Source: Segetibacter aerophilus
Lineage (GTDB): Bacteria; Bacteroidota; Bacteroidia; Chitinophagales; Chitinophagaceae
Assembly (NCBI RefSeq): GCF_007991655.1
Contig: NZ_BJYT01000005.1
Location: 1 to 64,000, forward strand
DNA: 64,000 bases
Direction of reading: 5' to 3'
The position numbers and the translations under genes were made by a program. Shown here in pieces: positions 4,050 through 62,127 of the stretch (positions within the stretch are counted from its first letter, which is position 1; each line of letters starts with the position of its first letter). The notes beneath the pieces are model-generated. The model saw only the letters and a list, made by a program, of their open reading frames with translations. It did no database searches and was not told where the DNA came from.

Positions 4050-4076
4050 GTACAAGTGAGTGACACAACGATGCTC
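4050..4076 (+). repeat. Dispersed intergenic repeat, class A copy
   Basis: Carries GTACAAGTGAG followed by TGACACAACGATG; only the last few bases differ from the class consensus. It lies in the gap between the converging LytTR and bshA genes. Confidence 0.8.
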
Positions 4077-4096
4077 CAAAACGTTATAAAGCCAGT

Positions 4097-5257
4097 TTAC
4101 ACAGCTTCGCTTTTAAGCTGGCTTTCTTCGCAATCCATAGTGCAAAAACGGCTATAGAGTTTTTCGTACACGGGCACGATGTTATGAATGTCGAACCTGC
4201 ACGCCTGCTCATAAGCCTGTTGCTTAAAAGTGGCAAGTGTTTCATCGTTTTGTAGAATTTCAATTGCACACCGGCTCATATGTGCAACGTCACCAACATT
4301 ACACATGAACCCAGTTTTGCCATCAATATTCACTTCAGGCAAACCACCTGCGTTGGTACTTAACACTGGCATACTTGCCGCCATCGCTTCCAGTGCCGCC
4401 AGTCCAAAACTTTCGTACTCCGAGGGAAGTATAAAGAGATCACTGACCACCAAAATTTCTTCCATTTGCTCCTGCTTACCGAGGAAGCGCACGTCGTCTA
4501 CAATTCCCAGTTCTTTCACCAGGTCTTCCATTACGGGTCTTTCAGGACCATCACCAACCATCAGCAATTTTGCCGGCATTTGCTTCCTCACTTCTGCAAA
4601 CACATGCACCACGTCCTGCACTCTTTTAACCTTTCTAAAGTTGGAAGCGTGCACCAATATCCGCTCTCCGTGCGGTGCAATCACACGGCGAAATGCATCA
4701 ATCGGTTTCTTGCTAAACCGTCCCACATCTACAAAGTTTTGGATCACCTCGATCTCTTTTGTAATGGCAAAAGACCGGTAAGTTTCAAGTCGCAGATTAT
4801 CACTAACAGCAGTTATTGCATCGCTTTCGTTGATACTAAAAGTTACCACGGGCGCGTAGGTTTTGTCTTTTCCTACCAACGTAATGTCCGTACCGTGCAG
4901 GGTAGTAATGACAGGTATTTTTTTGCCAACTTTTGCCACTATCTGCTTTGCCATGTATGCCGCCGATGCGTGCGGAATAGCATAATGCACGTGCAACAAA
5001 TCTAGTTTGTGAGACAGTATTACGTCGACCATTGTACTCGATAACGCAACCTCGTAAGGCGGATAGTCGAATAAGGGGTACGTGGGCACGCGAACTTCGT
5101 GATAAAAGATATTTGCACTAAAAACATTCAAACGTACAGGCTGCTGGTACGTAATAAAATGAACAAAATGTCCTTTATCGGCCAGTGCTTTACCTAACTC
5201 TGTAGCTAACACACCACTTCCACCAAAGGTGGGGTAGCAAACGATACCTATACGCAT
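4097..5257 (-). CDS. bshA: N-acetyl-alpha-D-glucosaminyl L-malate synthase BshA
   Basis: A 386-residue GT4-family glycosyltransferase. It begins MRIGIVCYPTFGGSGVLATE, the hallmark of BshA, with the glycine-rich loop that binds the UDP-sugar. The C-terminal half has the EX7E motif (E282 and E290 in YESFGLAALEAMAA) and the GGLPEV loop. BshA joins UDP-GlcNAc and L-malate in the first step of bacillithiol synthesis, which is known in Bacteroidota. bshB and bshC are not in this window. Length fits the family. It is a single gene, bounded on both sides by copies of the dispersed repeat. Confidence 0.93.
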   Translation of the reverse strand: MRIGIVCYPTFGGSGVLATELGKALADKGHFVHFITYQQPVRLNVFSANIFYHEVRVPTYPLFDYPPYEVALSSTMVDVILSHKLDLLHVHYAIPHASAAYMAKQIVAKVGKKIPVITTLHGTDITLVGKDKTYAPVVTFSINESDAITAVSDNLRLETYRSFAITKEIEVIQNFVDVGRFSKKPIDAFRRVIAPHGERILVHASNFRKVKRVQDVVHVFAEVRKQMPAKLLMVGDGPERPVMEDLVKELGIVDDVRFLGKQEQMEEILVVSDLFILPSEYESFGLAALEAMAASMPVLSTNAGGLPEVNIDGKTGFMCNVGDVAHMSRCAIEILQNDETLATFKQQAYEQACRFDIHNIVPVYEKLYSRFCTMDCEESQLKSEAV

Positions 5258-5302
5258 TGTTGCAGTTGAATTTTTTATGTTACCGGCATTGGCTTGTTAT
5301 GC

Positions 5303-5329
5303 AGCTTTACTTGCGTCGCACCCTTGTGC
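5303..5329 (-). repeat. Dispersed intergenic repeat, degraded class B copy
   Basis: Contains TTGCGTCGCACCCTTGTGC, close to the reverse complement of the class B consensus core. The outer CAACATT end is lost. It lies between the divergent bshA and M28 peptidase genes. Confidence 0.65.
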
Positions 5330-5475
5330 CGAAAATTTTCTATTGCCCGCATCAATTTATTCAAAATAACCTGCGGTGCAATAACATGCAAGTAACAATA
5401 AATTCTCTTATTGGTTTAGATTAGGGCGATGCATGGGTTGACTAACATGCAGTAATTTGCCGCATAATTTTTTAC

Positions 5476-6852
5476 ATGAAGAAACTACTTGCTGCTTTTG
5501 TTTTATTGCCTTTTATAGGTCAGGCCCAAAATACCGACTCTCTTTCTATAAGAAGAATTGCAGATGAAATGCTGACTAACGGAAAAGCCTTCGAAAATCT
5601 TCGACACCTTACCAAAAAGATTGGTGGCCGGCTGGCAGGATCTCCGCAGATGGTGAAAGCTGAAAACTGGGGACTGTCAACGCTAAGGCAATCGGGCGCC
5701 GATACCGTTTATTTCCAGGAGTGTCTTGTTCCTCATTGGGTGAGGGGAGGGGCGGACCAGGCTACAGTAATAAGTGTAGATGACAGAAAACAGAGACGAC
5801 TGTTGGACGTGCTTGCTTTAGGAAATTCAATGGGCAGTGGTAAAAAAGGAGTTACCGCCGAAGTAGTCGCAGTGGCATCGTTCGATGAGCTTGAAAAACG
5901 AAAGGATGAGGTAAAGGGTAAAATTGTTTTTTATAACTATCCGTTCAATCCAACTTATGTCGTTCCTGCGCTAGCTTATCGTGAGTCAGGTATTTACAGA
6001 GCAGCCGGTCCAAGCCGTGCAGCAAAATATGGGGCAGTAGGGGTTATTGTTCGATCTATGAGTGAAGGAACAAACAATCATCCCCATACAGGAGCAACCA
6101 GGTATAACGACTCTTTTCCAAAGATCCCCGCAGTTGCTGTTGGCTTAGAGGATGCGGATTACTTGTGGCAAACTTGTAAAGGAGGGCGCAAAGTCTATGT
6201 TTCGTTTACTACCAATGGTCATTTTTTACCCGACACAACCGGTCACAATGTGATAGCAGAATTGAAAGGTTCAGATGGTTCTAATGATTTTATAACTGTT
6301 GGCGGCCACCTTGATAGTTGGGATGTAAATGAGGGTGCACACGACGACGGAGCAGGCATCGTACAAACTATAGAGGTTTTAAGAACCTTAAAAGCTTTAG
6401 GCTATAAACCAAAGAAAACGCTTCGGTTTGTTTTATTTGCAAATGAAGAAAATGGAACCCGCGGAGGACTTAAATATGCTGAACAGGCAAAAGCTAAAAA
6501 CGAACATCACGTGCTTGCAATCGAAAGTGACGAGGGTGGCTTTACACCCCGTGGATTCGGTTTTACCGTAGGTAGTGACACGTTAGAAAAAATACGGCCC
6601 TGGGTAAAACTACTGGTGCCGTACGGGGTGTATGAATTTACAGCAGGTGGAGGTGGTACCGATATAGGCCCTTTAAACAAAACGCTAAACACACCCTTAG
6701 CTGGACTCGTTCCTGACAACCAGCGGTACTTTGATTTGCATCACGCACGAAATGATGTTTTTGAGGCAGTAAACAAAAGAGAACTTTTATTGGGTGCTAT
6801 TAATATGGCAGCTTTAATTTACCTCGTAGACAAATACGGCTTGTCACTATAA
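5476..6852 (+). CDS. Secreted M28-family zinc peptidase (carboxypeptidase Q-like)
   Basis: A 458-residue exported metallopeptidase. The signal peptide is MKKLLAAFVLLPFIGQAQ with probable cleavage after AQA. A protease-associated (PA) domain lies around residues 120-240. The M28 catalytic domain follows, with the di-zinc ligands visible as H278 (GGHLDSWD), D290 (AHDDGAG), E324/E325 (NEENG), D352 (ESDEGG) and H422/H423 (LHHARND). Architecture and length match plasma glutamate carboxypeptidase-like enzymes. It probably releases amino acids from peptides outside the inner membrane. Single gene, with no tight neighbour. Confidence 0.92.
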   Translation: MKKLLAAFVLLPFIGQAQNTDSLSIRRIADEMLTNGKAFENLRHLTKKIGGRLAGSPQMVKAENWGLSTLRQSGADTVYFQECLVPHWVRGGADQATVISVDDRKQRRLLDVLALGNSMGSGKKGVTAEVVAVASFDELEKRKDEVKGKIVFYNYPFNPTYVVPALAYRESGIYRAAGPSRAAKYGAVGVIVRSMSEGTNNHPHTGATRYNDSFPKIPAVAVGLEDADYLWQTCKGGRKVYVSFTTNGHFLPDTTGHNVIAELKGSDGSNDFITVGGHLDSWDVNEGAHDDGAGIVQTIEVLRTLKALGYKPKKTLRFVLFANEENGTRGGLKYAEQAKAKNEHHVLAIESDEGGFTPRGFGFTVGSDTLEKIRPWVKLLVPYGVYEFTAGGGGTDIGPLNKTLNTPLAGLVPDNQRYFDLHHARNDVFEAVNKRELLLGAINMAALIYLVDKYGLSL

Positions 6853-7009
6853 AAAAAGCGACTTTAAAGGTATTTTACGCTTCTGCCAAAAGGCTGTATT
6901 TTATGTTGAAAGCTTCAACTACCAATGAGGCAAAAGTTTGAAAACGATTTTAAAAAGTGTAGTATTGGCAGGATTATTTTATACTAAACGATAATTACAA
7001 TTATTCTCC

Positions 7010-7378
7010 ATGGCAAAAGTCGTCAGCATAGTGGTTCTTATTTTACTCCTGGTTTTTGGGGGTTGGTTCTATTGGAAATACTACTTCACTTATAGCGATG
7101 GCAACCGTACCGGGTTGTTGCAAAAATTTTCGCGCAAAGGAAATGTCTTCAAAACCTACGAGGGCGAAATGGTGCTTAATAGTGTCATCAGCAACAATGC
7201 GAGTCCAATGACGATGGAAAAGTTTTTTTTCTCAGTAGAAGATAAAAATGTTGCCTCAAAAATGGCCGGGTTTGAAGGAAAAAGGGTTGTACTTCATTAC
7301 GAAGAAAAAAATGGAGCGCTCTTTTGGAGAGGCGACACACGTTATATAGTTGACAGCGTAAGCAACGTAGTACCGTAA
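7010..7378 (+). CDS. Conserved hypothetical membrane-anchored protein
   Basis: A 122-residue protein with one N-terminal transmembrane segment (VVSIVVLILLLVFGGWFYWKYYF, residues 4-26) and a soluble beta-rich remainder. The pattern SDGNRTGLLQKFSRKGNVFKTYEGEM is seen in short Bacteroidota proteins of unknown function, which databases sometimes mislabel with an enzyme name. I see no catalytic motif. The stop codon is separated from the end of the facing gene by a single base. Confidence 0.75.
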   Translation: MAKVVSIVVLILLLVFGGWFYWKYYFTYSDGNRTGLLQKFSRKGNVFKTYEGEMVLNSVISNNASPMTMEKFFFSVEDKNVASKMAGFEGKRVVLHYEEKNGALFWRGDTRYIVDSVSNVVP

Positions 7379-7379
7379 G

Positions 7380-8081
7380 TTATGAGGAGTACAACAGGAA
7401 GATTGCAAGCCTCTTGTGTATATCCGGCAACTGTTTTTTCCATTCACCAATTGTTTTAGTCACAATCGTTTCAGTTGGCGCCGTGATGTCTACGGCGATA
7501 CAGAGCTGTGTTTGAGGTTTGCATGTTTCTGCCAGCTGTTTTATTAATTGATTATTTCGGTAAGGTGTTTCAATAAATATTTGCGTGCAGTTTTTTTTCG
7601 CTGACTCATTTTCAAGCTCTTTCAAAGCTGTTCTGCGTTCGCCGTTGTCAATAGGAAGATAGCCGGTAAATTGAAAACGTTGGCCATTCATTCCGCTCGC
7701 CATAAGCGCTAATAATATACTACTCGGACCCACTAACGGCTTCACTATCGAACCAGCCTTTTGGGCTGCATTTACCAACACTTGTCCCGGGTCTGCAATG
7801 CCGGGACAACCCGCTTCACTGATAATACCGATATTCTTTCCTTCTTTTAAAAGTTGCGTAAAAGCCTGTTGCACCTCACTTTCAGCTTTGTGAATGGTGA
7901 ACCATTTGTAATCGTCAATCACCATCTCGCGCCATAGTAGCTTTAAATGTCTTCGGGCAGTTCTTTCATTTTCGACAAAAAAGACCTGGCACTGCTTAAC
8001 GGCATCCAGCACATACAGAGGAATTGTTTCTATTGCCTGGTCGTACAAGAAAGTAGGGATAAGAAAAACACTGCCGGTCAT
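7380..8081 (-). CDS. RsmI/YraL-like SAM-dependent methyltransferase
   Basis: A 233-residue protein of the tetrapyrrole-methylase fold. Recognisable segments are the N-terminal LIPTFLYDQ, the central GIISEAGCPGIADPGQ (the SEAGxPxIADPG motif shared with RsmI) and the GPSSILLALMASGMNGQRFQFTGYLP segment that binds SAM and substrate. RsmI methylates the ribose of C1402 in 16S rRNA. This shorter Bacteroidota version lacks the C-terminal extension of E. coli RsmI, so the exact target is inferred. It ends tail-to-tail with the gene at 7010, and neither has an obvious terminator. Confidence 0.82.
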   Translation of the reverse strand: MTGSVFLIPTFLYDQAIETIPLYVLDAVKQCQVFFVENERTARRHLKLLWREMVIDDYKWFTIHKAESEVQQAFTQLLKEGKNIGIISEAGCPGIADPGQVLVNAAQKAGSIVKPLVGPSSILLALMASGMNGQRFQFTGYLPIDNGERRTALKELENESAKKNCTQIFIETPYRNNQLIKQLAETCKPQTQLCIAVDITAPTETIVTKTIGEWKKQLPDIHKRLAIFLLYSS

Positions 8082-8211
8082 GGAGAAGGTTTAGAAATTA
8101 GAAGTTTGCGAAGCTCGGAAATTAGGTCAAAAATTCTATTGGCTCAACAAAAGAATGTGTGCTCAAATCATTGAAAGTGCTGATTTTGATTTTGACGAAT
8201 ATTGCAATAAG

Positions 8212-8238
8212 GTACAAGAGTGCGACGCAACGAAAGCT
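8212..8238 (+). repeat. Dispersed intergenic repeat, class B copy
   Basis: Reads GTACAAGAGTGCGACGCAAC, an exact class B left and core part. The right part then diverges (GAAAGC). It lies between the RsmI-like gene and the EI24 gene. Confidence 0.75.
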
Positions 8239-8302
8239 TAATAGTGAGTAATTGTTGGGCACCAAATCTGACTGCCTTTTGCAACTTGCCAACTTCCTTT
8301 TA

Positions 8303-9073
8303 TTACTGCTCAGCCTGTTTTATTTTCTCTTGATGGATACTTAACGTTGCTGCAATAACGGCATAGGAAGGAGCGAAAAGCCATCCTGCAACCGGTACCA
8401 GGTGAAGCAGGTAAAACACCAGGCCGTTTGCAATGGCGAGGCCTTTTCTTTTGCCAATAAAGTGAATGCTTTCTGCTGCTGTTAAATGATTTCTTTCCAG
8501 GCTATAATCGAGCATTGAGAAGCCGTAATAGTAACACTCGACCAGGAGCGCAAAGACAGGAATGATCCAGCCCGCAACAGGAATAAAAGAAAGAATGGCA
8601 AATGCAATGAGATAGACGCATTGCCATAACGTATTTCGAAATGCAATACGAACACCGCGCACTACGTCTTTTAGCAACTGCGAGAAATTGAAAGGCACCT
8701 CCTTTCCTTCAAGAATTTCTTCGGTTTTTTCGCTCAGATAGGCAAAGATGGGTGAGCCTAAAATGAGCCAGATATATTTAAACAAGGAAAAATAAAAGAG
8801 CATTAAAATCATCCAAAGTATGATGCCGGCAATTGTAAACAGCAAACCTACAACCGTGCTTTGCATACTTTCGATCCATTGCTTTAAACCCGTTTCAATA
8901 CTGATCCACTCGATCACATAGGTTGCACTTTTGCCAAAGAAATACATGCTGATGCAAAACATCAGCATGTAAATAATGCCGGGTATAATGATCCATTTCC
9001 ACAGCTTGTGCTTACGAATAAAGCTATACGCATCTCCGTATGATCTAATGCCAATTACAATGTCTTTAAGCAA
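8303..9073 (-). CDS. EI24 / CysZ-like integral membrane protein
   Basis: A 256-residue inner-membrane protein. Hydrophobic segments lie near residues 27-45, 73-110, 145-180 and 210-235, matching the EI24 domain (Pfam family that includes the sulfate permease CysZ). The motif SFIPVAGWIIPVFALLVECYY with the following HFIGKRKGLAIANGLVFYLLHLVPVAGW is typical. No sulfate-assimilation genes are nearby, so a sulfate transport role is not supported by context. It is divergent from the DNA glycosylase gene, with 39 bp between the starts. Confidence 0.82.
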   Translation of the reverse strand: MLKDIVIGIRSYGDAYSFIRKHKLWKWIIIPGIIYMLMFCISMYFFGKSATYVIEWISIETGLKQWIESMQSTVVGLLFTIAGIILWMILMLFYFSLFKYIWLILGSPIFAYLSEKTEEILEGKEVPFNFSQLLKDVVRGVRIAFRNTLWQCVYLIAFAILSFIPVAGWIIPVFALLVECYYYGFSMLDYSLERNHLTAAESIHFIGKRKGLAIANGLVFYLLHLVPVAGWLFAPSYAVIAATLSIHQEKIKQAEQ

Positions 9074-9112
9074 ATGGGATAGTGTTTATGGTATAAATTT
9101 AGACCGTATTTC

Positions 9113-9835
9113 ATGCCGTCTTTTAAATTAGATGAGGGACGGCAAACAAACAACTTTAAACAAGAGAGCAAATTGAACGAACAACGGGAATTAAATACTG
9201 ATTTTGCAAATTGGAGAAAATTGCCAACGGAGTTTTTTGAAAGGCAGGATGTTGTAGCCATCACGAAAGACCTGGTTGGAAAAATACTTGTAACAAATTT
9301 TGATGATAAACTAACTGCAGGCAGAATTGTGGAGGCGGAAGCATACAACGGTCCATTTGATAAAGCCGCTCATTCATACGGCAACCGTCGTACTGCGCGT
9401 ACTGAAGTGATGTTTGGTCCTGCAGGCAGGGCTTACATTTATTTGTGCTATGGGATACATCAAATGTTCAATATTGTGACGAATGCTGAAGGGATACCGA
9501 ACGCCATTTTAATCAGGGCACTTGAGCCGCTTGCAGGTATAGATATTATGCTTGAAAGAACCAAGAAAACCGCCCATACTTTCGATCTCACCCGGGGACC
9601 CGGAAACGTAGCCAAAGCGCTTGGGTTTCATACAAGCCAAACAGGCATGAGCCTTCAAAGCGACCAGCTTTATATAGCCGAGGATGGTTTTAAATACGCC
9701 CAGGGTGAAATAGTAGTCAGCCCGCGAATTGGTGTTGATTATGCCGCCGAAGATGCTTTATTGCCTTATCGTTTTATTGTGCAAGGCAATAAGTATGTAA
9801 GCGGAAAGAAAATTAAGCAAGCTCCAATAACATAA
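9113..9835 (+). CDS. DNA-3-methyladenine glycosylase (AAG/MPG family)
   Basis: A 240-residue base-excision repair enzyme that removes alkylated purines. It shows the family blocks LPTEFFERQDVVAITKDLVGK, the catalytic-glutamate motif RIVEAEAYNGPFDKAAHSYG, RTARTEVMFGPAGRAYIYLCYGIHQMFNIVT and the late block LTRGPGNVAKALG. The first ~38 residues are not part of the family core, but no internal Met is available before the core, so the start at 9113 is kept. It sits just upstream of a broken acetyltransferase gene. Confidence 0.92.
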   Translation: MPSFKLDEGRQTNNFKQESKLNEQRELNTDFANWRKLPTEFFERQDVVAITKDLVGKILVTNFDDKLTAGRIVEAEAYNGPFDKAAHSYGNRRTARTEVMFGPAGRAYIYLCYGIHQMFNIVTNAEGIPNAILIRALEPLAGIDIMLERTKKTAHTFDLTRGPGNVAKALGFHTSQTGMSLQSDQLYIAEDGFKYAQGEIVVSPRIGVDYAAEDALLPYRFIVQGNKYVSGKKIKQAPIT

Positions 9836-9836
9836 G

Positions 9837-10367
9837 ATGATTGAAATAAGAATGATTGAAACGGAAGATTATTTTCAATTATTTGAATTAGTAGAAAAAA
9901 AACAGGGAAAGGCTTTTAACCTATTTTCCAAAAACTTCCCGTGCTATTACTGATCTTGAATCTGCAAGAAAATTCACGCGGTTGAAGTTGCGGCAGGCAA
10001 TGAACAGGGAGCAATTTTATTTTGTGGTGTTTTTAAAAAACAGCACCCAATCATTGGAAATGTCATGGTTAAAAACATAGATTGGAGTGTACCAAAAGGA
10101 GAACTGGCTTATTTTATTGATGCCGAACAAGAAGGCAAAGGTTTTACTTCTAACGCAGTGGAGTTGGTTAAGAATTACGCGTTTGAGGATTTGAAAATAG
10201 AGAAGCTATACATCAAAATTGATCCGAGAAATTTGGGTAGTAAAAGAGTTGCTATAAATAATGGCTTCGAGAAGGAAGGATACTTTAAACATGAATACAG
10301 AACCGGTTACGGAGATGTAACTGACGTGGAGAGATATGGGCTGGTGAACAACCGTAGCCGGCGTTAA
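9837..10367 (+). pseudogene. GNAT-family N-acetyltransferase, interrupted by two indels
   Basis: Read from ATG 9837, the protein starts MIEIRMIETEDYFQLFELVE and then runs into a stop. If one base of the 8-A run at 9895-9902 is ignored, the frame continues as KNRERLLTYFPKTSRAITDLESARKF. A second shift, one base missing near 9973-9978, restores the original frame as VEVAAGNEQGAILFCGVF and on to the end. That last part holds the acetyl-CoA site region (AYFIDAEQEGKGFTSNAVELV) and the RimJ/RimL-like tail NGFEKEGYFKHEYRTG. The +1 and -1 changes nearly cancel. It is therefore either a recent pseudogene or a sequencing error in homopolymers. The intact downstream part alone spans 10065-10367. Confidence 0.8.
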
Positions 10368-10502
10368 TGCTATACGTATATTTTTAGCTTGATACTCTTT
10401 ATTGTTTATTAATAGCTGTGTAGCAGTTTATTTTTCACATGGAAAGGAAATAGGCGTGAAAGACTTCTGCTGTCAAACTCATTAAGTAATTTCGTCAGCA
10501 GA

Positions 10503-11159: not shown

Positions 11160-11192
11160 AAGCTATGTAGTTGTAAAATTGAACGCATAAAA

Positions 11193-11220: not shown

Positions 11221-11237
11221 TCATTGAAGAAACAATC

Positions 11238-27305: not shown

Positions 27306-27332
27306 CAACATTGTTGTGTCACTCCCTTGTAC
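27306..27332 (-). repeat. Dispersed intergenic repeat, A/B hybrid copy
   Basis: Begins CAACATTGTTGTGTCACTC and ends CCTTGTAC. The outer end is class B-like (CAACATTGTTG) and the core is class A-like (GTGTCAC). It lies between two converging genes. Similarity continues about 25 bp outward (GCGGGCATTAC at 27286-27296), as in the copy at 33327. Confidence 0.8.
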
Positions 27333-33326: not shown

Positions 33327-33353
33327 AGCATTTGTTGCGTCGCACACTTGTAC
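33327..33353 (-). repeat. Dispersed intergenic repeat, class B copy
   Basis: Contains TTTGTTGCGTCGCACACTTG followed by TAC, close to the reverse complement of the class B consensus. Outward similarity (GCGGGCATTGTA at 33307-33318) matches the flank of the copy at 27306. It lies between the aldolase and the Gfo/Idh/MocA gene. Confidence 0.8.
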
Positions 33354-42700: not shown

Positions 42701-42726
42701 CAACGTTGCGTCGCATTTCGTTTATC
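42701..42726 (-). repeat. Dispersed intergenic repeat, class C copy with a 3-bp deletion
   Basis: CAACGTTGCGTCGCATTTCG followed by TTTATC. The outer half matches class B except that ATT is missing. The inner half is replaced by TTTCGTT, as in the copy at 61913. Confidence 0.7.
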
Positions 42727-42825
42727 CGTTGTGCTTCTATTAAACATGCCCGTTTGCCTAATAAAAAACTGTCGACAATCCCTTAAAACATTAGAAAACT
42801 TTCACTGAAAATCTTGCTGATTTTA

Positions 42826-45787: not shown

Positions 45788-45814
45788 TAACACTCTTGCG
45801 TCGCACACTTGTAC
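45788..45814 (-). repeat. Dispersed intergenic repeat, class B copy (left arm of an inverted pair)
   Basis: TAACACTCTTGCGTCGCACA followed by CTTGTAC, close to the reverse complement of the class B consensus. It forms an inverted pair with the copy at 45956. Confidence 0.8.
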
Positions 45815-45955: not shown

Positions 45956-45982
45956 GTACAAGTGAGTGACACAACGATGTAC
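45956..45982 (+). repeat. Dispersed intergenic repeat, class A copy (right arm of an inverted pair)
   Basis: GTACAAGTGAG and GTGACACAACGATGT match class A exactly up to the last few bases. Downstream similarity continues as AAATGCTCG at 45995-46003, as in the copy at 52400. Confidence 0.88.
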
Positions 45983-52289: not shown

Positions 52290-52316
52290 AAACATTCTTA
52301 CCGCCCTGTTCGTTTC
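52290..52316 (-). repeat. Dispersed intergenic repeat, degraded class C copy (left arm)
   Basis: AAACATTCTTACCGCCCTG followed by TTCGTTTC. By eye it shares about 18 of 27 positions with the class C copy at 61913. It is paired in inverted orientation with the copy at 52400. Confidence 0.5.
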
Positions 52317-52399: not shown

Positions 52400-52426
52400 G
52401 TTGAATGGTGTGACACAACGATGTTA
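52400..52426 (+). repeat. Dispersed intergenic repeat, class A copy (right arm)
   Basis: The core and right part GTGACACAACGATGTTA match class A. The left GTACAAG is degraded. Downstream similarity (CTAACGCTCG at 52437-52446) matches the copy at 45956. Confidence 0.75.
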
Positions 52427-54222: not shown

Positions 54223-54249
54223 CAACATCGTTGTGTCACTCACTTGTAC
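54223..54249 (-). repeat. Dispersed intergenic repeat, class A copy, full match
   Basis: CAACATCGTTGTGTCACTCA followed by CTTGTAC is the exact reverse complement of the class A consensus. It lies in the nuoA-nuoB gap. Confidence 0.92.
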
Positions 54250-55087: not shown

Positions 55088-55115
55088 AGCAAATGCGGGA
55101 AATTCGAAATTTGAT

Positions 55116-55155
55116 AATTTGAAAATGTGATCCTACGCCTTTTCATTTTCAAATT
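55116..55155. repeat. AT-rich inverted repeat between nuoB and nuoC
   Basis: AATTTGAAAATG (55116-55127) and its exact complement CATTTTCAAATT (55144-55155) form a 12-bp stem with a 16-base loop. There is no T run, so terminator function is doubtful. It may mark processing or be a remnant of a low-complexity repeat. Confidence 0.75.
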
Positions 55156-55184
55156 TCAAATTGATTAATTTTCAAATTAGATAG

Positions 55185-55772
55185 ATGCCCTTAACTAACC
55201 CTGATATCATACAAAGATTAGTTGACAAGTTTGGAGAATCACTTACTGAATTTGGTGAACCTTATGGCATGCTTACTTTTTCTGCCCCGAGGGAAATGAA
55301 TTTGAAGGTGATGCGTTTTTTATACGATGAGCCCGATTTGGGATTTCAATTCTTGACTGATTTATGTGCGGTTCATTATCCTGAACGTGTGGGGGAGGAG
55401 TTAGCCCTGGTTTACCACTTGCATAACCTCGTGGAGAATGTAAGGATAAGATTCAAGGTATTTCTTCCGGTAGCTCAACCAGATGTAATCACTGCCACCA
55501 GCATTTTTGAATCCGCAAACTGGATGGAACGGGAGACCTACGATTTTTTTGGGGTCAACTTTATTGGTCACCCGAACTTAAAGAGGATTTTGAATGTTGA
55601 GGAGATGGATTATTTCCCTATGCGCAAAGAATTTCCTTTGGAAGATCAAAGCCGTATAGATAAAGATGATGAGATGTTTGGTCGCGGTGGCAGCATTGAC
55701 TTTGGCAATCGTGAGGTACCTGATGAGCCAAGGACAATCAGCGAAGCTGATAAGGATAAAACATGGATATAG
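55185..55772 (+). CDS. nuoC: NADH-quinone oxidoreductase subunit C
   Basis: 195 residues of the 30-kDa subunit, peripheral arm. The family motif is WMERETYDFFGVNFIGHPNLKRIL, followed by FPMRKEFPLEDQSR. The protein is separate from NuoD, unlike the fused NuoCD of E. coli. A charged C-terminal tail (residues 165-195) is poorly conserved. A dispersed-repeat copy lies in the gap before nuoD. Confidence 0.95.
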   Translation: MPLTNPDIIQRLVDKFGESLTEFGEPYGMLTFSAPREMNLKVMRFLYDEPDLGFQFLTDLCAVHYPERVGEELALVYHLHNLVENVRIRFKVFLPVAQPDVITATSIFESANWMERETYDFFGVNFIGHPNLKRILNVEEMDYFPMRKEFPLEDQSRIDKDDEMFGRGGSIDFGNREVPDEPRTISEADKDKTWI

Positions 55773-55816
55773 CTTCTTTTAATTCGAATTATAAAAAGGT
55801 GCCGAAAACATTGAAA

Positions 55817-55843
55817 GTACAAGAGTGCGACGCAACAATGTTG
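55817..55843 (+). repeat. Dispersed intergenic repeat, class B copy, full match
   Basis: GTACAAGAGTGCGACGCAAC followed by AATGTTG. This copy defines the class B consensus. Downstream similarity (GAATAGAA, AATGCC) extends it to about 55861. It lies between nuoC and nuoD. Confidence 0.92.
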
Positions 55844-55879
55844 AATAGAATAGAAATGCCGACAACAAAAAAATAAAAG

Positions 55880-57115
55880 ATGTCTGTTGTAGAACAACCT
55901 AAACATAGAGTGCTTCCCGATGGAAGTATTGAAAAAACCACTACCACCTTAAACCTGGGGCCGACGCACCCGGCTACGCATGGTGTGTTCCAGAATATTT
56001 TGGAGGTAGATGGTGAAAGAGTGGTGGACGCTGAACAAACTGTTGGTTATATACATCGGGCTTTTGAGAAAATTGCTGAGCATCGTCCTTTATACCAGAT
56101 TACACCGCTCACCGATAGATTGAATTATTGCAGCAGCCCGATTAATAACATGGGTTGGCACATGACGTGCGAAAAACTGCTAGGCCTTACGCTTCCAAAA
56201 AGGGTCGACTACCTGAGAGTAATCATAATGGAGCTTGCCCGAATTGCAGACCACCTTATTTGTAACTCAGTTGTTGGCGTGGATACCGGAGCTTTTACTG
56301 GCTTTTTGTACGTGATGCAATACCGCGAATTGATTTACGAAATATGGGAAGAGGTTTGCGGTAGCCGCTTAACAACAAATATTGGCCGTATCGGTGGATT
56401 TGAAAGAAATTTCAACGACATAGCATTTAGGAAACTCGAGAAGTTTCTAAATGAATATCCGAAGGTGCTGAAGGAGTTTGAAAACCTCTTTAACCGCAAC
56501 CGGATTTTCATGGAGCGGACACAGGGAGTTGGAGGTATCGCTCCCGAGAGAGCCCTTAACTATGGCTTTACGGGTCCTAACTTAAGAGCAGCAGGAGTAG
56601 ATTACGACGTGCGCGTACATTCTCCCTATAGCAGTTACGAAGACTTTGATTTTACTGTTCCTGTTGGAAAAACAGGCGATGTATACGACCGGTTTTTAGT
56701 TCGAAACGAAGAGATGTGGCAATCGCTTGAAATTATCAAGCAGGCTTACCGCAAGGTGCAGGATTTCAAGGGGAAAGACGCTGAAGTTTTTCATGCGGAT
56801 GCTCCTGAGTATTATCTCCCTGAAAAGAAGGATGTGTATACAAAAATGGAAGCGCTTATTTATCACTTCAAGATAATTATGGGCGAGACCGATATTCCTG
56901 CAGGTGAAGTTTACCATTGTGTAGAGGGCGGAAATGGCGAATTAGGGTTTTATCTAATTAGCGACGGAGGTCGTACTCCTTATCGCTTGCATTTTCGCAG
57001 ACCTTGTTTCATCTATTACCAGGCTTACACAGAACTAATAAAAGGTAGCATGTTGAGTGACGCAATCATTTGCATGAGCTCGCTAAATTTGATTGCCGGT
57101 GAGATGGACGGATAA
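55880..57115 (+). CDS. nuoD: NADH-quinone oxidoreductase subunit D
   Basis: 411 residues of the 49-kDa subunit, which with NuoB forms the quinone pocket. Family blocks are LGPTHPATHGVFQNILEVDGERVVDAEQTVGYIHRAFEKIAEHRPLYQ, NNMGWHMTCEKLLG and the C-terminal GRTPYRLHFRRPCFIYYQAY. The catalytic histidine of HPATHG is present. Normal length. Confidence 0.96.
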   Translation: MSVVEQPKHRVLPDGSIEKTTTTLNLGPTHPATHGVFQNILEVDGERVVDAEQTVGYIHRAFEKIAEHRPLYQITPLTDRLNYCSSPINNMGWHMTCEKLLGLTLPKRVDYLRVIIMELARIADHLICNSVVGVDTGAFTGFLYVMQYRELIYEIWEEVCGSRLTTNIGRIGGFERNFNDIAFRKLEKFLNEYPKVLKEFENLFNRNRIFMERTQGVGGIAPERALNYGFTGPNLRAAGVDYDVRVHSPYSSYEDFDFTVPVGKTGDVYDRFLVRNEEMWQSLEIIKQAYRKVQDFKGKDAEVFHADAPEYYLPEKKDVYTKMEALIYHFKIIMGETDIPAGEVYHCVEGGNGELGFYLISDGGRTPYRLHFRRPCFIYYQAYTELIKGSMLSDAIICMSSLNLIAGEMDG

Positions 57116-57131
57116 TTAAAAATTAAAATTA

Positions 57132-57162
57132 AAAATGAAAAATTGAAGTCATTTTTCATTTT
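57132..57162. repeat. AT-rich inverted repeat between nuoD and nuoE
   Basis: AAAATGAAAAAT (57132-57143) and ATTTTTCATTTT (57151-57162) form a perfect 12-bp stem with a 7-base loop. It is preceded by reiterated AATTAAAA. It lies inside the operon, 18 bp before the nuoE start. Confidence 0.75.
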
Positions 57163-57179
57163 GCCTTTTTCAATTATAA

Positions 57180-57680
57180 ATGATACAGTTTTCAGAAAAG
57201 AGTTTAAACGAAGTGCAGAAGATTTTTGCACGTTATCCGGAAGGAAAACAAAAGAGTGCTTTACTGCCGGTGCTGCACCTTGCACAGGAGGAATTTGGTG
57301 GCTGGCTGGATGTTCCAGTTATGGATTATGTGGCAGAGTTGCTTGGTATTACACCTATAGAGGTATACGAGGTTGCGACTTTCTACAGTATGTACAATAT
57401 GAAGCCGGTAGGTAAGTTCGTTTTTGAAGTTTGCCAAACCGGGCCTTGTATGCTGAGAGGTAGCGATGACATTATTAATTATATAAAAAGTAAATTAGGT
57501 ATCAGCGTGGGAGAAACAACGCCTGACGGACTTTTTACTCTGAAAGTTGTTGAATGCCTTGGAGCTTGTGGATACGCACCAATGATGCAATTAGGAAAGC
57601 ATTTCAGAGAACATCTAACGCCCGAAAAAGTAGATTCAATTATAGAAGAGTGCCGTAGCTTTTCAGCAATCAATAATTAG
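57180..57680 (+). CDS. nuoE: NADH-quinone oxidoreductase subunit E
   Basis: 166 residues of the 24-kDa subunit, thioredoxin-like, with [2Fe-2S] cluster N1a. The four ligands are C85 and C90 (CQTGPCML) and C126 and C130 (ECLGACGYAP). The motif VYEVATFYSMYN is typical. The next gene is not nuoF but a VOC-family gene inserted between them. Confidence 0.96.
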   Translation: MIQFSEKSLNEVQKIFARYPEGKQKSALLPVLHLAQEEFGGWLDVPVMDYVAELLGITPIEVYEVATFYSMYNMKPVGKFVFEVCQTGPCMLRGSDDIINYIKSKLGISVGETTPDGLFTLKVVECLGACGYAPMMQLGKHFREHLTPEKVDSIIEECRSFSAINN

Positions 57681-57728
57681 TTTAAAGGTTTTATAGATAA
57701 GAATTCGGTTTGTTTAAAAAAGAGGGTC

Positions 57729-58136
57729 ATGAAACTTACACCTTATATACACTTCCAGGGAAATGCTGAAGAGGCAATGCATTTTTACACTGCAGCTTTA
57801 GGAGGAAATGTGATTGCGATAAGTCGATATGGTGATAGTCCAATGGCGTCAGATGAAGATTATAAAGACAAAGTGCTGCATGGAAGAATTCAGTTTGGAG
57901 ATAACGTGATTATGATATCTGATACATTTAAAGGTAAAAATGTGCAAACTGAAGGAAACATTCAATTGTCCATTGAGCTAAGTGAGGAAGGTCAGATAGA
58001 CGATGTTTTTAAAAGAATGTCAGAAGGTGGTACGGTTACCATGGAACTTCAGGACACTTTCTGGGGCGCCAGGTTTGGAATGCTGAAAGACAGGTTTGGA
58101 GTTAATTGGATGTTTAATTACGAATTGAAGAAATAG
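57729..58136 (+). CDS. VOC-superfamily protein (PhnB/glyoxalase-like) inside the nuo locus
   Basis: 135 residues: MKLTPYIHFQGNAEEAMHFYTAALGG, then KVLHGRIQFGDNVIMISD and GARFGMLKDRFGVNWMFNYE, the standard PhnB-like (DUF3330/VOC) pattern. Such proteins are one-domain barrels that often bind a metal, but enzyme activity is unproven. It is in the same direction as the nuo genes, 48 bp after nuoE and 61 bp before nuoF, so it is probably co-transcribed. It is not a complex I subunit by known biology. Confidence 0.9.
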   Translation: MKLTPYIHFQGNAEEAMHFYTAALGGNVIAISRYGDSPMASDEDYKDKVLHGRIQFGDNVIMISDTFKGKNVQTEGNIQLSIELSEEGQIDDVFKRMSEGGTVTMELQDTFWGARFGMLKDRFGVNWMFNYELKK

Positions 58137-58197
58137 GTCAAAATTTTAAATTAATAAGTCAAAAAGAATTATCTGTTTTGATTTTTTATTTGGAGAA

Positions 58198-59547
58198 ATG
58201 AGTACAAAATTATTATTAGACAAGGCAAATATTGAAGGAATACGTTTTTACAAAGCGTACCGCGAGAACGGCGGATATGCTGCAGTAGAAAAAGCCTTCA
58301 AAATGACTCCGACAGAGATCGTTGAAGAAGTAAAGAAAAGTGGTTTGCGGGGTCGGGGAGGAGCAGGTTTTCCAACGGGGATGAAATGGAGTTTCCTTGC
58401 AAAACCGGAAGGCGTTCCTCGTTATCTTGTTTGCAATGCAGATGAGAGTGAGCCTGGAACTTTTAAAGACAGATATCTAATGGAGTTCCTCCCGCACCTG
58501 TTAATAGAGGGTCTGATTATCTCATCTTTTGCTTTAGGAAGCAACAGAACATATATCTACATCAGAGGTGAATATGCCTGGATCCCAGATATTTTAGAAC
58601 ATGCGATTGAAGAGGCTAAGCAAAATGGCTGGCTAGGTAAGAACATTTTAGGGACGGGTTTTGATTGCGAGATATATGTGCAGCGTGGTGCCGGTGCTTA
58701 CATCTGTGGAGAGGAAACTGCTTTGATAGAAAGTCTTGAAGGCAAAAGAGGTAACCCTCGCATCAAGCCACCGTTTCCTGCTATCAAGGGTTTATGGGAA
58801 AGTCCTACAGTCGTTAATAATGTTGAGACCCTTGCCGCTATCGTTCCTATTTTCAATATCGGTGGTGAGGAGTATGCTAAGATTGGAGTTGGTAAATCGA
58901 CAGGTACTAAATTGATAAGCGCTTGTGGAAATATCAACAAGCCAGGCGTGTACGAGATCGACATGACAATTAGTGTTGAGGAATTTGTTTATAGCGATGA
59001 GTATTGCGGTGGTATTCCAAATGGTAAGAGATTAAAAGCCTGTATTCCTGGTGGATCATCCGTACCTATTTTGCCTGCTAATCTTTTATTTAAAACTGCG
59101 AAAGGCGAAACACGTTTGATGAACTACGAGAGTTTGTCAGACGGAGGATTTGCAACAGGAAGTATGATGGGTTCAGGAGGCTTTATAGTATTGGACGAAG
59201 ATCAATGCATTGTTCGACATACGTTAACTCTTGCGCGTTTTTATCATCATGAAAGCTGTGGTCAATGTAGTCCGTGCCGGGAAGGTACCGGTTGGATGAA
59301 ACGCGTTCTATATAACCTCGAGTACGGAAAGGGCAAATTGAGCGATATCGATTTGTTGTGGGATATACAAAGAAGAATTGAAGGAAATACCATTTGCCCC
59401 TTAGGTGACGCCGCCGCATGGCCTGTAGCGGCTGCGATCAGGCATTTTAGAGATGAATTTGAGTGGCATGTACTAAACCCGGAAGAAAGCCAGGTAAGAA
59501 ATTTCGGATTAGCACATTACGCTGATGCGAGAGAGGTTATGGTGTAA
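58198..59547 (+). CDS. nuoF: NADH-quinone oxidoreductase subunit F
   Basis: 449 residues of the 51-kDa subunit, where NADH binds and FMN is reduced. The FMN/NADH motifs are GLRGRGGAGFPTGMKW, GAGAYICGEETALIESLEGKRGNPR and PPFPAIKGLWESPTVVNNVETLA. The [4Fe-4S] cluster N3 ligands are in SCGQCSPCREGTGW and NTICPLGDAAA. Length is normal. It forms the electron input module with NuoE and NuoG. Confidence 0.97.
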   Translation: MSTKLLLDKANIEGIRFYKAYRENGGYAAVEKAFKMTPTEIVEEVKKSGLRGRGGAGFPTGMKWSFLAKPEGVPRYLVCNADESEPGTFKDRYLMEFLPHLLIEGLIISSFALGSNRTYIYIRGEYAWIPDILEHAIEEAKQNGWLGKNILGTGFDCEIYVQRGAGAYICGEETALIESLEGKRGNPRIKPPFPAIKGLWESPTVVNNVETLAAIVPIFNIGGEEYAKIGVGKSTGTKLISACGNINKPGVYEIDMTISVEEFVYSDEYCGGIPNGKRLKACIPGGSSVPILPANLLFKTAKGETRLMNYESLSDGGFATGSMMGSGGFIVLDEDQCIVRHTLTLARFYHHESCGQCSPCREGTGWMKRVLYNLEYGKGKLSDIDLLWDIQRRIEGNTICPLGDAAAWPVAAAIRHFRDEFEWHVLNPEESQVRNFGLAHYADAREVMV

Positions 59548-59614
59548 GCTTTGTATTCATAAATAACTTTAAACTTCCCGCCTTGCTACTTATGCAGGCG
59601 TGAAAAAATAAAAT

Positions 59615-60763
59615 ATGGCTGAAGAAGTAAAAAAAGATGCTCCTCAAATGTTTAAAGTTACCATCGACAATATAACTGTCGAGGTAGCTCCGGGTACATC
59701 TATATTAATGGCAGCAAGAAAGGTAGGCGGAGATGTAGCTCCTCCTACCATGTGTTTCTATAGCAAGCTGAAAGGCAGTGGAGGTAAATGCCGAACTTGT
59801 TTGGTTGAGGTCGCCGCAGGTTCAACTGCTGACCCCCGGCCAATGCCTAAACTCGTTGCAAGTTGTCGCACCAACGTAATGGATGGAATGGTTGTGAAGA
59901 GTATAACCAGTGAGAAAGTGCTTGATGCGCGTAAAGGCGTGGTGGAATTTTTATTGCTCAACCATCCCCTCGATTGCCCAATTTGTGATCAGGCAGGAGA
60001 ATGTCATCTGCAGGATTTGAGTTATGAGCACGGAAAAGAAGAAACACGCTACGAGTTCCAGCGTCGCTTATTTGAGAGAGAAGACATCGGTCCTTACATT
60101 CAATTGCACATGACCCGCTGCATTTTGTGTTATCGCTGTACTTACATAGCTGACCAAATTACCAACACCAGGATGCACGGTATTTTAGATAGAGGTGAAC
60201 ACGCCCAAATAAGCACCTACATTTCTAAAGCTATTGACAACGACTTTAGCGGAAATATGATAGATGTTTGTCCTGTTGGTGCATTAACTGATAGAACTTT
60301 CCGCTTCAAACAAAGGGTGTGGTTTTTAAAGCCATTGAACGCCCACCGAGATTGCGATAAGTGCTGCGGTAAAGTAACCATCTGGAACAGGGGAGATGAA
60401 GTATTTCGTGTAACTGCAAGAAAAGATGAGTGGGGTGAAGTTGAAGATTTTGACGGTAAGACCGGATGGATTTGTAACACTTGTCGCTTCGATAAAAAGA
60501 AAACAAGTGATTGGGTTATTGAAGGTCCGAGAAAAATAAACAGGCATTCAGTCATTTCTGCCAATCATTATTTAGATGACCTTAAGCGTCCTCACGAAAC
60601 GATTGCCGAGGTAATGGGCGGACGGAAACCGAAACTCTTAATGGATATTCATGCAGTGAGCGAAGTAAACAAGCCAACTGTGCATCTAAGCGAAATTGAA
60701 GGTCCGGCCACAAGCGAGGTATTTAATAAAGAAAATGGTAGACTTTTGCCTGAAACAAAATAG
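59615..60763 (+). CDS. nuoG: NADH-quinone oxidoreductase subunit G, short form
   Basis: 382 residues. It has the ferredoxin-like [2Fe-2S] domain (MCFYSKLKGSGGKCRTCLVEV), the HC3 [4Fe-4S] site (HPLDCPICDQAGECHLQD), the C4 site (CILCYRCTY and VCPVGAL) and a fragment of the Mo-bisMGD [4Fe-4S] segment (CDKCCGKVTIWNRGDEVFRV, GWICNTCRF). The large inactive molybdopterin-like domain of E. coli NuoG (910 residues) is missing. The reading frame shows no sign of damage, so this looks like a genuine short form. Confidence 0.93.
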   Translation: MAEEVKKDAPQMFKVTIDNITVEVAPGTSILMAARKVGGDVAPPTMCFYSKLKGSGGKCRTCLVEVAAGSTADPRPMPKLVASCRTNVMDGMVVKSITSEKVLDARKGVVEFLLLNHPLDCPICDQAGECHLQDLSYEHGKEETRYEFQRRLFEREDIGPYIQLHMTRCILCYRCTYIADQITNTRMHGILDRGEHAQISTYISKAIDNDFSGNMIDVCPVGALTDRTFRFKQRVWFLKPLNAHRDCDKCCGKVTIWNRGDEVFRVTARKDEWGEVEDFDGKTGWICNTCRFDKKKTSDWVIEGPRKINRHSVISANHYLDDLKRPHETIAEVMGGRKPKLLMDIHAVSEVNKPTVHLSEIEGPATSEVFNKENGRLLPETK

Positions 60764-60800
60764 TGAACTAAGATTAGGCTTATAAATAAAGGGATAAATA

Positions 60801-61859
60801 ATGGTGCTTTTACAAATTGACTGGGCTTTATTATTCGAAAAACTTGCCCTTATCGGAGCTATTATAACTGCATCGTTGGTGATCGCGATGTATTCTACAT
60901 GGGGCGAGCGCAAGGTGGCGGCTATTTTACAGGACCGGAAAGGTCCTAATCGTGCTGGTCCTTTTGGCCTTTTACAGCCCCTTTCCGATGGAGGTAAGTT
61001 ATTCTTTAAAGAGGAAATCATTCCAAATACCTCAAACAAAACCCTGTTTATTTTAGGCCCTTGCCTGGCTATGTTAACTGCGATGATGACAAGTGCAGTT
61101 ATCCCGTGGGGCAACCAGATACACATCAATATGTTTGGTATCGATCGTACGGTGAACCTCCAAATTGCAGACATTAATATCGGAATCCTTTACATTTTTG
61201 GTGTTGTAAGCACAGGCGTGTATGGTATCATGATCGGCGGATGGGCGAGTAACAATAAGTTTTCGCTGATGGCCGCAATGCGTGGAGCTTCGCAGGTAAT
61301 TAGCTATGAATTAGCCATGGGCCTCTCAATGATTGCCCTTTTAATGCTAAGTGGTTCACTTAGTCTGAAAACTATTGTGGAGCAGCAAATACAAGGGTCA
61401 TGGTGGAATATAGTTTATCAGCCTATTGGCTTTCTTATTTTTATTATTTGCGCTTTTGCTGAATGTAACCGCGCTCCGTTTGATTTGCCGGAAGCTGAGA
61501 ATGAATTGAATTTCGGTTACCACCAGGAGTATTCAAGTATGAAGCTCGGTTTTTACCTGTTTGCTGAATACATAAATATGTTCATCAGCAGTGTTATTAT
61601 GGCAACTCTTTACTTTGGAGGTTATGATATGCCTTTTGTAAATGAAGCAAATTTGTCTGTAAATCTTGCAGCTATCATTGGTTTCGTGGCACTGTTCGGA
61701 AAAACTTTTATCCTGATTTTTATATTTATGTGGGTTCGTTGGACACTCCCTCGTTTTCGGTACGACCAATTGATGAACCTTGGATGGAAATCATTAATTC
61801 CTCTTGCTTTGGTAAATATGTTCATAACCGGGGCAGTTATATTATGGAGACAAGGATAA
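60801..61859 (+). CDS. nuoH: NADH-quinone oxidoreductase subunit H
   Basis: 352 residues, eight or more membrane helices, connecting the peripheral arm to the proton pumps. Diagnostic segments are STWGERKVAAILQDRKGPNRAGPFGLLQPLSDGGKLFFKE and FAECNRAPFDLPEAENELNFGYHQEYSSMKLG, which carry the charged residues of the quinone chamber. Normal length. A 422-bp gap separates it from nuoI. Confidence 0.96.
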   Translation: MVLLQIDWALLFEKLALIGAIITASLVIAMYSTWGERKVAAILQDRKGPNRAGPFGLLQPLSDGGKLFFKEEIIPNTSNKTLFILGPCLAMLTAMMTSAVIPWGNQIHINMFGIDRTVNLQIADINIGILYIFGVVSTGVYGIMIGGWASNNKFSLMAAMRGASQVISYELAMGLSMIALLMLSGSLSLKTIVEQQIQGSWWNIVYQPIGFLIFIICAFAECNRAPFDLPEAENELNFGYHQEYSSMKLGFYLFAEYINMFISSVIMATLYFGGYDMPFVNEANLSVNLAAIIGFVALFGKTFILIFIFMWVRWTLPRFRYDQLMNLGWKSLIPLALVNMFITGAVILWRQG

Positions 61860-61912
61860 TTTGTAAGTGTCGTTATCAGAGAGTTTTTGGTACAAGCTAT
61901 GCCGCTCCGATT

Positions 61913-61941
61913 AAACATTGTTGCGTCGCATTTCGTTCATC
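61913..61941 (-). repeat. Dispersed intergenic repeat, class C copy (left arm of an inverted pair)
   Basis: AAACATTGTTGCGTCGCA followed by TTTCGTTCATC. The outer half is class B. The inner half is the TTTCGTT variant also seen at 42701. Confidence 0.8.
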
Positions 61942-62100
61942 AGTAGTAACTCGGTTGGATCAAAGGAAATGGTAAGTAACAAGCTTACGGTGAATGTAGA
62001 GCATCGAAAATTTGGTATGGAACGTTTACTGTCGGTTGACCAGGTATTCAATGATGAATGTTAGGCAGATTATTGTTCACCGAAGAATAAAGAACAGAAA

Positions 62101-62127
62101 GTACAAGTGAGTGACACAACGATGTTG
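62101..62127 (+). repeat. Dispersed intergenic repeat, class A copy, full match (right arm)
   Basis: GTACAAGTGAGTGACACAAC followed by GATGTTG, identical to the complement of the copy at 54223. It is inverted relative to the copy at 61913. Confidence 0.92.

Follow-up and report, generated by a model that had tools for sequence, protein, structure and literature searches.

The question raised by this locus is what kind of element a short motif is that recurs between genes and keeps complementary bases inside its core. The window analyzed here is a stretch of 64,000 nucleotides (64 kb) from Segetibacter aerophilus, for which the initial annotation had listed 14 copies. When a weight matrix built from the 24-bp core was applied to the window with a threshold of at least 25 bits, 11 of these copies were recovered, i.e., all the cores given below except those at 42701 and 61913. 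The latter two resembled each other and kept the right half of the core, but not the rest, and the copy placed at 52290 gave no match in any scan. The features are as follows, with G numbers standing for genomes.

4050..4076, + strand: class A core between convergent genes (matrix, 41.9 bits)
5303..5329, - strand: class B core with a diverged 3' end (matrix, 25.3 bits)
8212..8238, + strand: class B core (matrix, 36.7 bits)
27306..27332, - strand: class A core, with an orthologous copy in G006 (matrix and orthologous-site comparison)
33327..33353, - strand: class B core, with an orthologous copy in G006 (matrix and orthologous-site comparison)
42701..42724, - strand: right half only (TGCGACGCAAC), a sub-variant in common with 61913
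45788..45814, - strand: class B core, left partner of an inverted pair (matrix)
45956..45982, + strand: class A core, right partner of an inverted pair (matrix)
52400..52426, + strand: class C-type core (T10, T12, A16), with orthologous copies in G006 and G009 (matrix)
54223..54249, - strand: class A core, with an orthologous copy in G006 and a weak relic in G009 (10.1 bits)
55799..55873, + strand: full element of about 75 bp (box1, core, box2/3, A-run) around the 55817 core
55817..55843, + strand: class B core directly upstream of a nuoD-like gene (orthologous-site comparison)
61913..61939, - strand: right half plus CAATGTT, a sub-variant and inverted neighbor of 62101
62083..62157, + strand: full element of about 75 bp around the 62101 core
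62101..62127, + strand: class A core, with a nuoI-like ferredoxin gene downstream

From the gene order, we take the genes before the 55817 and 62101 cores to be putative nuoC and nuoH, respectively.

The conserved unit was about 75 bp long, with limits at -18 and +57, and was composed of the 24-bp core, flanking boxes, and an A-run. Classes A and B shared 22 of 27 positions, as originally described, and the double change proposed for positions 12 and 16 held well outside the window. Covariation of these positions, named at the outset as a check, was present in 411 aligned copies, and among 6005 core copies from 21 genomes, 2725 carried T-A, 3227 carried C-G (by subtraction), and 53 were mixed, compared with 48 mixed forms in reversed controls. 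One-sided changes were about as rare as chance matches, and two-sided changes were found everywhere. The T-A share differed by genome, with 9 of 167 copies in G013, 59 of 844 in G034, and 33 of 44 in G016. In the 411 copies, CAAC at positions 17-20 was nearly invariant. Position 4 was occupied by C in 80% and by G in 11% of them, giving GTAC in most class A/B copies; most class D copies had GTTG. The second dyad that had been claimed, CAACA-A-TGTTG, did not survive this alignment, where the arm at positions 25-27 was variable, with the commonest base at 45, 63, and 41%.

Class D is a third class, in which position 8 pairs with 15 in place of the 12/16 pair. When the 557 of 603 copies with a box3 score of at least 10 were analyzed for this class and for folding, positions 8 and 15 were complementary in 50 of 59 class D cores, a set that includes chance matches and of which 43 fit NN-GAGCG-TN'G; the shuffle mean was 18.6, and none of 2000 shuffles was as high. 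This class had box1, box3, and the A-run in common with A/B. Classes A and B offered two to three adjacent pairs, the commonest cores folded weakly in isolation (-0.8 to -3.3 kcal/mol), and no single simple hairpin fitted both A/B and D. Covariation between core and boxes was weak, the largest listed value being 0.135 bits for c10/a9 versus 0.877 bits for 12/16 (568 of 602 copies, box3 score of at least 9). The one-base center of the dyad had been taken as an argument against a hairpin, and this is doubtful because a 3-nt loop might be closed by pairs 11-17 and 12-16 when the DNA is single-stranded, and because the 8/15 pair of class D has a different center and is no extension of the duplex dyad of A/B.

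The motif is real and much commoner than first described: the window's genome (G000) contained 355 copies at up to 3 mismatches from the two-class pattern, and the reversed control gave 0. In the window, the class A 27-mer had 5 matches at up to 3 mismatches and 0 in 100 shuffles. Weight-matrix scores over 2.05 Mb were bimodal, with 376 matches scoring more than 20 bits but 46 in the range from 4 to 20, and the reversed control of the same scan gave 8 above 4 bits and 0 above 16. Genomes of the same genus had 3-881 copies each with the pattern at up to 3 mismatches, and the 12-base core ranged from 4 to 1075 copies within one genus, with 4 copies in G008 (the core-copy count over genomes leaves out G012, G015, G017, G020, and G035), a spread more like that of mobile DNA than of essential sites. 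No motif match was detected in 23 genomes from other families of the same order, nor in the phage and plasmid collections, each searched with one 77-base query. Among viral contigs, there was one exact match to the 24-base pattern, at locus L155; that contig carried a tail-fibre-like gene, and one of its five frames had any PHROG match. No earlier description of the element was found in the literature searched.

The location between genes, in both orientations, was confirmed for the 13 real copies of the window, which lay outside the genes predicted by a simple caller. Equal density inside genes had been named as a refuting outcome, and the comparison did not refute the claim: in a 2-Mb sample that was 85% coding, 338 of 344 placed copies were intergenic (placement required a called gene on both sides), with an earlier, smaller count giving 86 of 91. 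The other six overlapped predicted genes; three of them lay at an end, and the remaining three no more than 75 bp from a predicted start. Relative to their neighbors, 123 copies were antisense to both and 115 sense to both, and 54 lay between two gene ends and 46 between two gene starts. Close pairs were inverted in 48 of 49 cases (39 -+, 9 +-, 1 --, 0 ++). Even spacing was rejected, with a coefficient of variation (CV) of 1.00 versus 0.91 (sd 0.09) for random placement, and so was replication polarity: an 800-kb stretch whose GC skew was positive in 14 of 16 blocks carried 59 copies on the + strand and 54 on the - strand. The -7 promoter motif of Bacteroidetes is TAnnTTTG. On the element's strand, it peaked at +80 to +160, which fits the promoter of the next gene, and of 48 promoter-like motifs in the interval from +60 to +200, 33 preceded a gene start; the element there thus lies upstream of the next promoter. 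The element as a promoter was discarded, since the main -7 peak fits the next gene. From -60 to -40, the motif rose slightly on the same strand, with 11 in one 20-base bin.

The random orientation to genes, folding energies near those of shuffles, and the position upstream of the next promoter argue for action at the DNA rather than the RNA level, and this part of the initial annotation stood, although its exclusion of a hairpin is doubtful. A cis-acting RNA, leader or intercistronic, with 12-16 within a short stem would be in keeping with the compensatory changes, with copies located within a row of genes (for instance, the one before the nuoD-like gene), with the slight -7 motif rise at -60 to -40, and with a forward strand that folds slightly better than shuffles (mean -11.9 versus -11.1 kcal/mol). 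We regard it as improbable nonetheless, as copies antisense and sense to both neighbors were equally numerous, the larger promoter peak sits between the element and the next gene, and the consensus fold was empty with 80 copies per class on either strand. Moreover, there was no strong core-box covariation, T-G wobble showed no excess (20 versus 23 in the control), and Rfam at gathering scores found only a tRNA in the window. Uptake signals such as the Neisseria DUS and Haemophilus USS are frequent in genes as well as in non-coding DNA. The element resembles them in being dispersed on both strands in many near-consensus copies, with A-rich flanks and a small decayed tail, and differs in its near-absence from genes, its length of about 75 bp, and its strict internal pairing, which uptake does not need; none of the papers listed in a literature search was, by title and abstract, about such a signal in Bacteroidota, and maintenance by uptake bias, as an uptake or sorting signal, would be very improbable. 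A group of unrelated regulons, each with its own transcription factor but similar operators, would explain why several classes exist, and we give this the least credence of all, since the 800-kb stretch held 103 copy clusters per 376 intergenic regions of at least 90 bp, the copies were placed without regard to where genes start or which way they run, and class D carries the box1, box3, and A-run of A/B.

A selfish origin calls for closer comparison. The element would then be of the REP/REPIN type, moved as single-stranded DNA by a Y1/RAYT or related transposase that reads the hairpin, and the classes would be subfamilies. High copy number, extragenic location, inverted dimers, and subfamilies with alternative complementary bases speak for this, together with patchy copy numbers, class ratios specific to lineage, and the somewhat related copies of G001, including two 84%-identical ones flanking a RAYT-like gene. 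These two belong to locus L297, which has three copies; they are alike over 87 bp from GTAC and lie beside the RAYT-like frame, with one stop inside the match, and this arrangement is taken as a possible duplication, not a unit. According to PMC3733652, REPs have subfamilies with alternative complementary bases and favor inverted dimers, head-tail ones being rare, and our element resembles the REP/BIME/REPIN repeats of the GTAG super-family in being short, extragenic, present in hundreds of copies, divided into subfamilies, and arranged in inverted dimers. Unlike them, it starts with GTAC or GTTG rather than GTAG (or the GTRG and GYAG variants), lacks the stable 5-13 bp palindromic stem and a RAYT gene link, and is about 75 bp long with A-rich boxes, old-looking copies, and a constrained core. 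The same paper places CGTC-tagged REPs, which have no dedicated transposase, in Bacteroidetes among other phyla (PMC3733652); the element shares the phylum and likewise has no evident dedicated transposase, but its CGTC lies only inside the class B core (complementary strand) and in part of class D, never as an end tag, and the 8-9 bp stem is missing. Bacteroidetes Y1 genes of subclass 2.6 are flanked by atypical structures with dispersed copies, as described in PMC6006769; the likeness, as drawn from that description, is in phylum and dispersal, and the element, unlike those structures, was not found flanking Y1 genes.

The gene scans weighed against the selfish origin as well. Among the matches listed, 30 Y1 loci (PF01797) and 30 RAYT loci (NF047646) were scanned for about 1.5 kb per side. 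Two scans of the Y1 loci each placed the element near 3 of 30, and the two combined near 4; among the RAYT-model loci, 3 of 30 had it nearby (5 element-like matches, with 4 further pattern matches judged chance by eye). The density of the own contig predicts about 12 to 14 matches per 30-locus set, a figure that is only rough because element density differs among genomes. A RAYT/Y1 link was rejected. In addition, G007 and G033 had no Y1/RAYT gene at E<=1e-3 despite 120 and 283 core copies, and the 121 G000 copies had no parent-offspring look. RAYT genes do not explain the element, and we consider the selfish reading rather unlikely.

Orthologous sites gave information about age and constraint. 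At 16 shared sites, core identity was 0.83 (random copies 0.79), a value inflated because the orthologous set required both copies to be present, and flank identity, lowered by indels because identities were ungapped, was 0.29 upstream at -60..-37 (random copies 0.28), where the surroundings are unrecognizable, and 0.36-0.40 downstream of the unit (random copies 0.27-0.29), so that the surroundings were not wholly lost. The core is intact while much of the surrounding DNA is scrambled, and it is probably a working DNA signal. The class was swapped in place at three orthologous sites, for which gene conversion could be an alternative source; the 55817 site carried the element in 8 genomes, with the 12/16 type altered in 2, and the 62101 site was class B in G003 and G004. 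The orthologous copy was present in 16 of 22 directed comparisons with flanks at least 78% identical. Within the genus, it was present in 19 of 41 comparisons for flank identities of 73-78% and in 17 of 52 below 73%, and comparisons between other labels gave 8 of 26 and 36 of 126 (counts leave out 2 rows of L276, the window's own genome). Turnover of the element is real. Among the 121 G000 copies, no parent-offspring pairs were apparent, flank identity being about that of independent draws. The G001 copies were more alike than independent draws (top 0.82 versus 0.69-0.71), and some later copying is therefore likely there. Orthologous sites with and without the element both occur. Their alignments had diverged too far to show a clear target duplication; at one empty site, in G006, a possible 4-base repeat was seen by eye. 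A longer autonomous parent was rejected after the flanks of 124 G000 copies were compared: in the best 30 of 75 matches, 28 were neighboring-copy overlaps, and the other two (243 bp at 84% and 133 bp at 89%) each joined a single pair of places.

Collectively, we favor, with a probability of about 0.48, a dispersed extragenic element of about 75 bp in Chitinophagaceae that is REP/BIME-like in behavior but outside the known REP families, old, selected, and read by a putative protein. It would have been spread long ago by a putative mobilizer, and most copies would now be kept by selection as candidate binding sites. The putative protein, probably a dimer or a nuclease-like reader of a small hairpin formed when DNA is single-stranded or extruded, would recognize the paired core; the A-rich boxes on both sides may serve as bend or contact regions, and each site may have a structural or insulating role between one transcription unit and the next. 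A more tentative proposal, in which we place limited confidence, is that of a family-wide intergenic address: the classes would be versions of one site, each carrying a self-matching base pair of its own, read by a putative protein or a few paralogues at hundreds of places, often in inverted, mostly outward-facing pairs, and organizing or insulating transcription units. If true, this address would constitute a new chromosome-structuring system whose sites change class in place without loss of function. The roughly 6000 natural 12/16 copies in 21 genomes are a rare handle for finding the reader of the site, and the element would offer a test of whether repeats of a REP-like kind can be sites under selection and not selfish DNA.

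Thirteen of the 14 motif copies listed for the window by the initial annotation were real and all 13 lay outside predicted genes, as had been claimed; the one listed at 52290 was not a copy. At ≤3 mismatches, the class A 27-mer had 5 matches in the window vs 0 in 100 shuffles, and a core weight matrix at ≥25 bits recovered 11 of the 14 listed copies. At 42701 and 61913 the right half alone was retained, and these two were alike (42705-42732 and 61920-61947, 89% over 28 bases), being a sub-variant where CGAAATGCGACGCAAC replaces the GTACAAG start. Two other repeats were observed in the window: an array of 7-base units of the CAAAAGN type at the extreme start (2-323), and four copies, within 540 bp (63443-63980), of another 22-base palindromic repeat of the AAGCCCCTTTAGGGGTTTGGGG type, possibly a second extragenic repeat family.

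Base composition around 91 copies, 411 copies and 144 copies of the compared genome G001 placed the limits of the unit at about -18 and +57, in the order box1, A-rich spacer, core (1-24), box2, box3 and A-run. Spacer lengths showed one-base variation, and copies within a genome have almost nothing in common outside these limits. The boxes and core classes were as follows:

Box1: G-Y-TGAATARARA
Box2: similar to box1
Box3: AAATGCYGGTNAC
Class A core: T8 A10 T12 A16
Class B core: A/T8 T10 C12 G16
Class C core, a minority: T10 T12 A16
Class D, a third form: GTTGAACNGAGCGTN'GCAAC, with boxes similar to those of the other classes

The window's own genome (5.89 Mb) contained 180 + 175 copies at ≤3 mismatches, and the reversed control gave 0. 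Matches to this pattern were present in 19 of 59 genomes; the genus had them in all 10 of its genomes (3 to 881 copies each), the remaining family members in 9 of 26 and other families of the order in 0 of 23. Applied to 197 genomes sampled from the class, the 24-base pattern (≤3 mismatches) had matches in six, i.e., the own genome (551), one family member (89) and four with single matches of 2-3 mismatches each; the reversed control gave one match, in another genome. Counts of the shorter core GNGYGACRCAAC summed to 6005 over 21 genomes; they were lowest in some family members (1 or 2, which is the chance level) and highest in G001 (1075). Among the matches listed, exact copies came from Segetibacter, Ferruginibacter, Foetidibacter and Pinibacter, and from MAGs labelled Chitinophagaceae, Chitinophagales, Sphingobacteriales or Bacteroidota. 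The uncultivated viral contig L155, which also has a tail-fibre-like gene, contained one exact core copy at position 6077; a single query against the phage records and one against the plasmid records gave no element match.

The proposal that the facing positions 12 and 16 covary proved right. In 411 copies there were 217 T-A, 186 C-G and 8 other states, and over the 21 genomes T-A accounted for 2725 and C-G for 3227 of the 6005 core copies, the latter obtained by subtraction rather than by direct count. Double changes were thus abundant, and the one-sided states were at about chance level, since T-G occurred 20 times vs 23 in reversed controls and C-A 33 times vs 25. The class ratio was lineage-specific, with T-A shares of 9/167, 59/844, 24/283 and 33/44 in genomes G013, G034, G033 and G016, and mixed in those members of the window's genus that carry copies. 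Position 10 was also coupled in the 411 copies (A10 with T-A, T10 with C-G), and therefore a class is more than a single base pair; because A10 faces A18 in 261 of 278 class A copies, this class does not accommodate a simple stem of three pairs. In class D, positions 8 and 15 were complementary in 50 of 59 copies (24 G-C, 16 T-A, 7 C-G, 3 A-T), a count reached by 0 of 2000 shuffles (mean 18.6), and no such link was found in A/B copies. The largest core-to-box covariation listed was 0.135 bits (c10/a9) vs 0.877 for 12/16. A second dyad, also proposed initially, was not supported. Single cores folded weakly, as RNA or DNA alike, and the one-base centre, taken initially as an argument against a hairpin, does not by itself exclude one. 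The 12/16 coupling is not self-sustaining and must need a reader.

Placement was analyzed for 344 copies in about 2 Mb of sequence, 85% of it coding. Intergenic siting held here too, with 338 copies between genes, three touching a gene end and three ≤75 bp from a predicted start. Relative to both neighbours, 123 copies were antisense and 115 sense; 54 lay between two gene ends and 46 between two gene starts. The nearest gene was closer on the A-run side (median 66-97 bp vs 115-159). Neighbouring copies ≤350 bp apart were arranged -+ in 39 cases, +- in 9, -- in 1 and ++ in 0, and 18 of these 49 pairs were of the same class (20 expected). By eye, the DNA between paired copies was dissimilar from pair to pair; at loci L235 and L197 it resembled a further inverted repeat (in L235, one of the GAGAAATCTGC type), as would be expected if additional small elements had settled at these places. 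Along 800 kb, in which 14 of the 16 blocks had positive GC skew, copies were randomly spaced, 59 on the + and 54 on the - strand, and formed 103 clusters vs 376 intergenic regions ≥90 bp long.

Sixteen sites were located in at least two genomes; they were chosen by presence of the element in both, and identities are ungapped. In 52 within-site pairs, identity was 0.83 in the core (random copies 0.79), 0.29 at -60..-37 (0.28), 0.44 in box1 (0.32), 0.50 in box3 (0.41), and 0.40 and 0.36 downstream of the unit (0.29 and 0.27), where gene starts are frequent. These values indicate that the core was kept at consensus and much of its surroundings turned over. Of 22 directed comparisons with flanks ≥78% identical (two self rows left out), 16 had the element; at 73-78% and below 73%, it was present in 19/41 and 17/52 within the genus, and in 8/26 and 36/126 between other labels. 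The 12/16 type was retained at 13 of the 16 sites. Class had changed in place at three. Before a nuoD-like gene, six genomes carry B, G007 carries A and G025 carries C; before a nuoI-like gene, the window's genome and G006 carry A, and G003 and G004 carry B; the third is L202/L255. Gene conversion between copies could also produce such swaps. Beside the conserved element before the nuoD-like gene, G006 and G009 had a gap of 584-695 bases, and the matching gap in the window's genome was 33-44 bases between matched stretches.

Mobility was considered as a source of the copies. No sign of recent copying was seen among 121 copies of the window's genome (926 kb, about a sixth of it), whose flank identity (mean 0.439, top 0.69) was close to that of independent draws (0.42-0.43, 0.65-0.69); 134 copies of G001 showed some relatedness (mean 0.462, top 0.82, vs 0.43-0.44 and 0.69-0.71). 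Y1 transposase genes occurred in 22 of 26 genomes and RAYT-model matches in 24; G007 and G033, where neither was found, had 120 and 283 core copies. Two scans each placed the element near 3 of 30 Y1 loci, and it was near 3 of 30 RAYT loci; these counts do not exceed what its density predicts. At locus L297 (G001:C56), two copies, 84% alike over 87 bp and with the first base exactly at GTAC, flanked a RAYT-like gene that has a stop within its matched stretch.

The element resembles REP/BIME repeats in genomic behaviour and differs from them in the tag, the stem and the RAYT association, as tested against the descriptions in PMC3733652 and PMC6006769. In the literature searched on REP/REPIN in Bacteroidetes, MITEs and dispersed repeats, uptake sequences and Chitinophagaceae repeats, mostly at the level of titles and abstracts, no description of it was found, and the motif letters as a query returned only papers with unrelated titles. 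The element is a dispersed, extragenic, DNA-level unit. Its reader could recognise either a dyad in duplex DNA or a short hairpin. The compared copies look old, yet their cores are intact, a combination that favours selection on these sites and their recognition by a putative protein.
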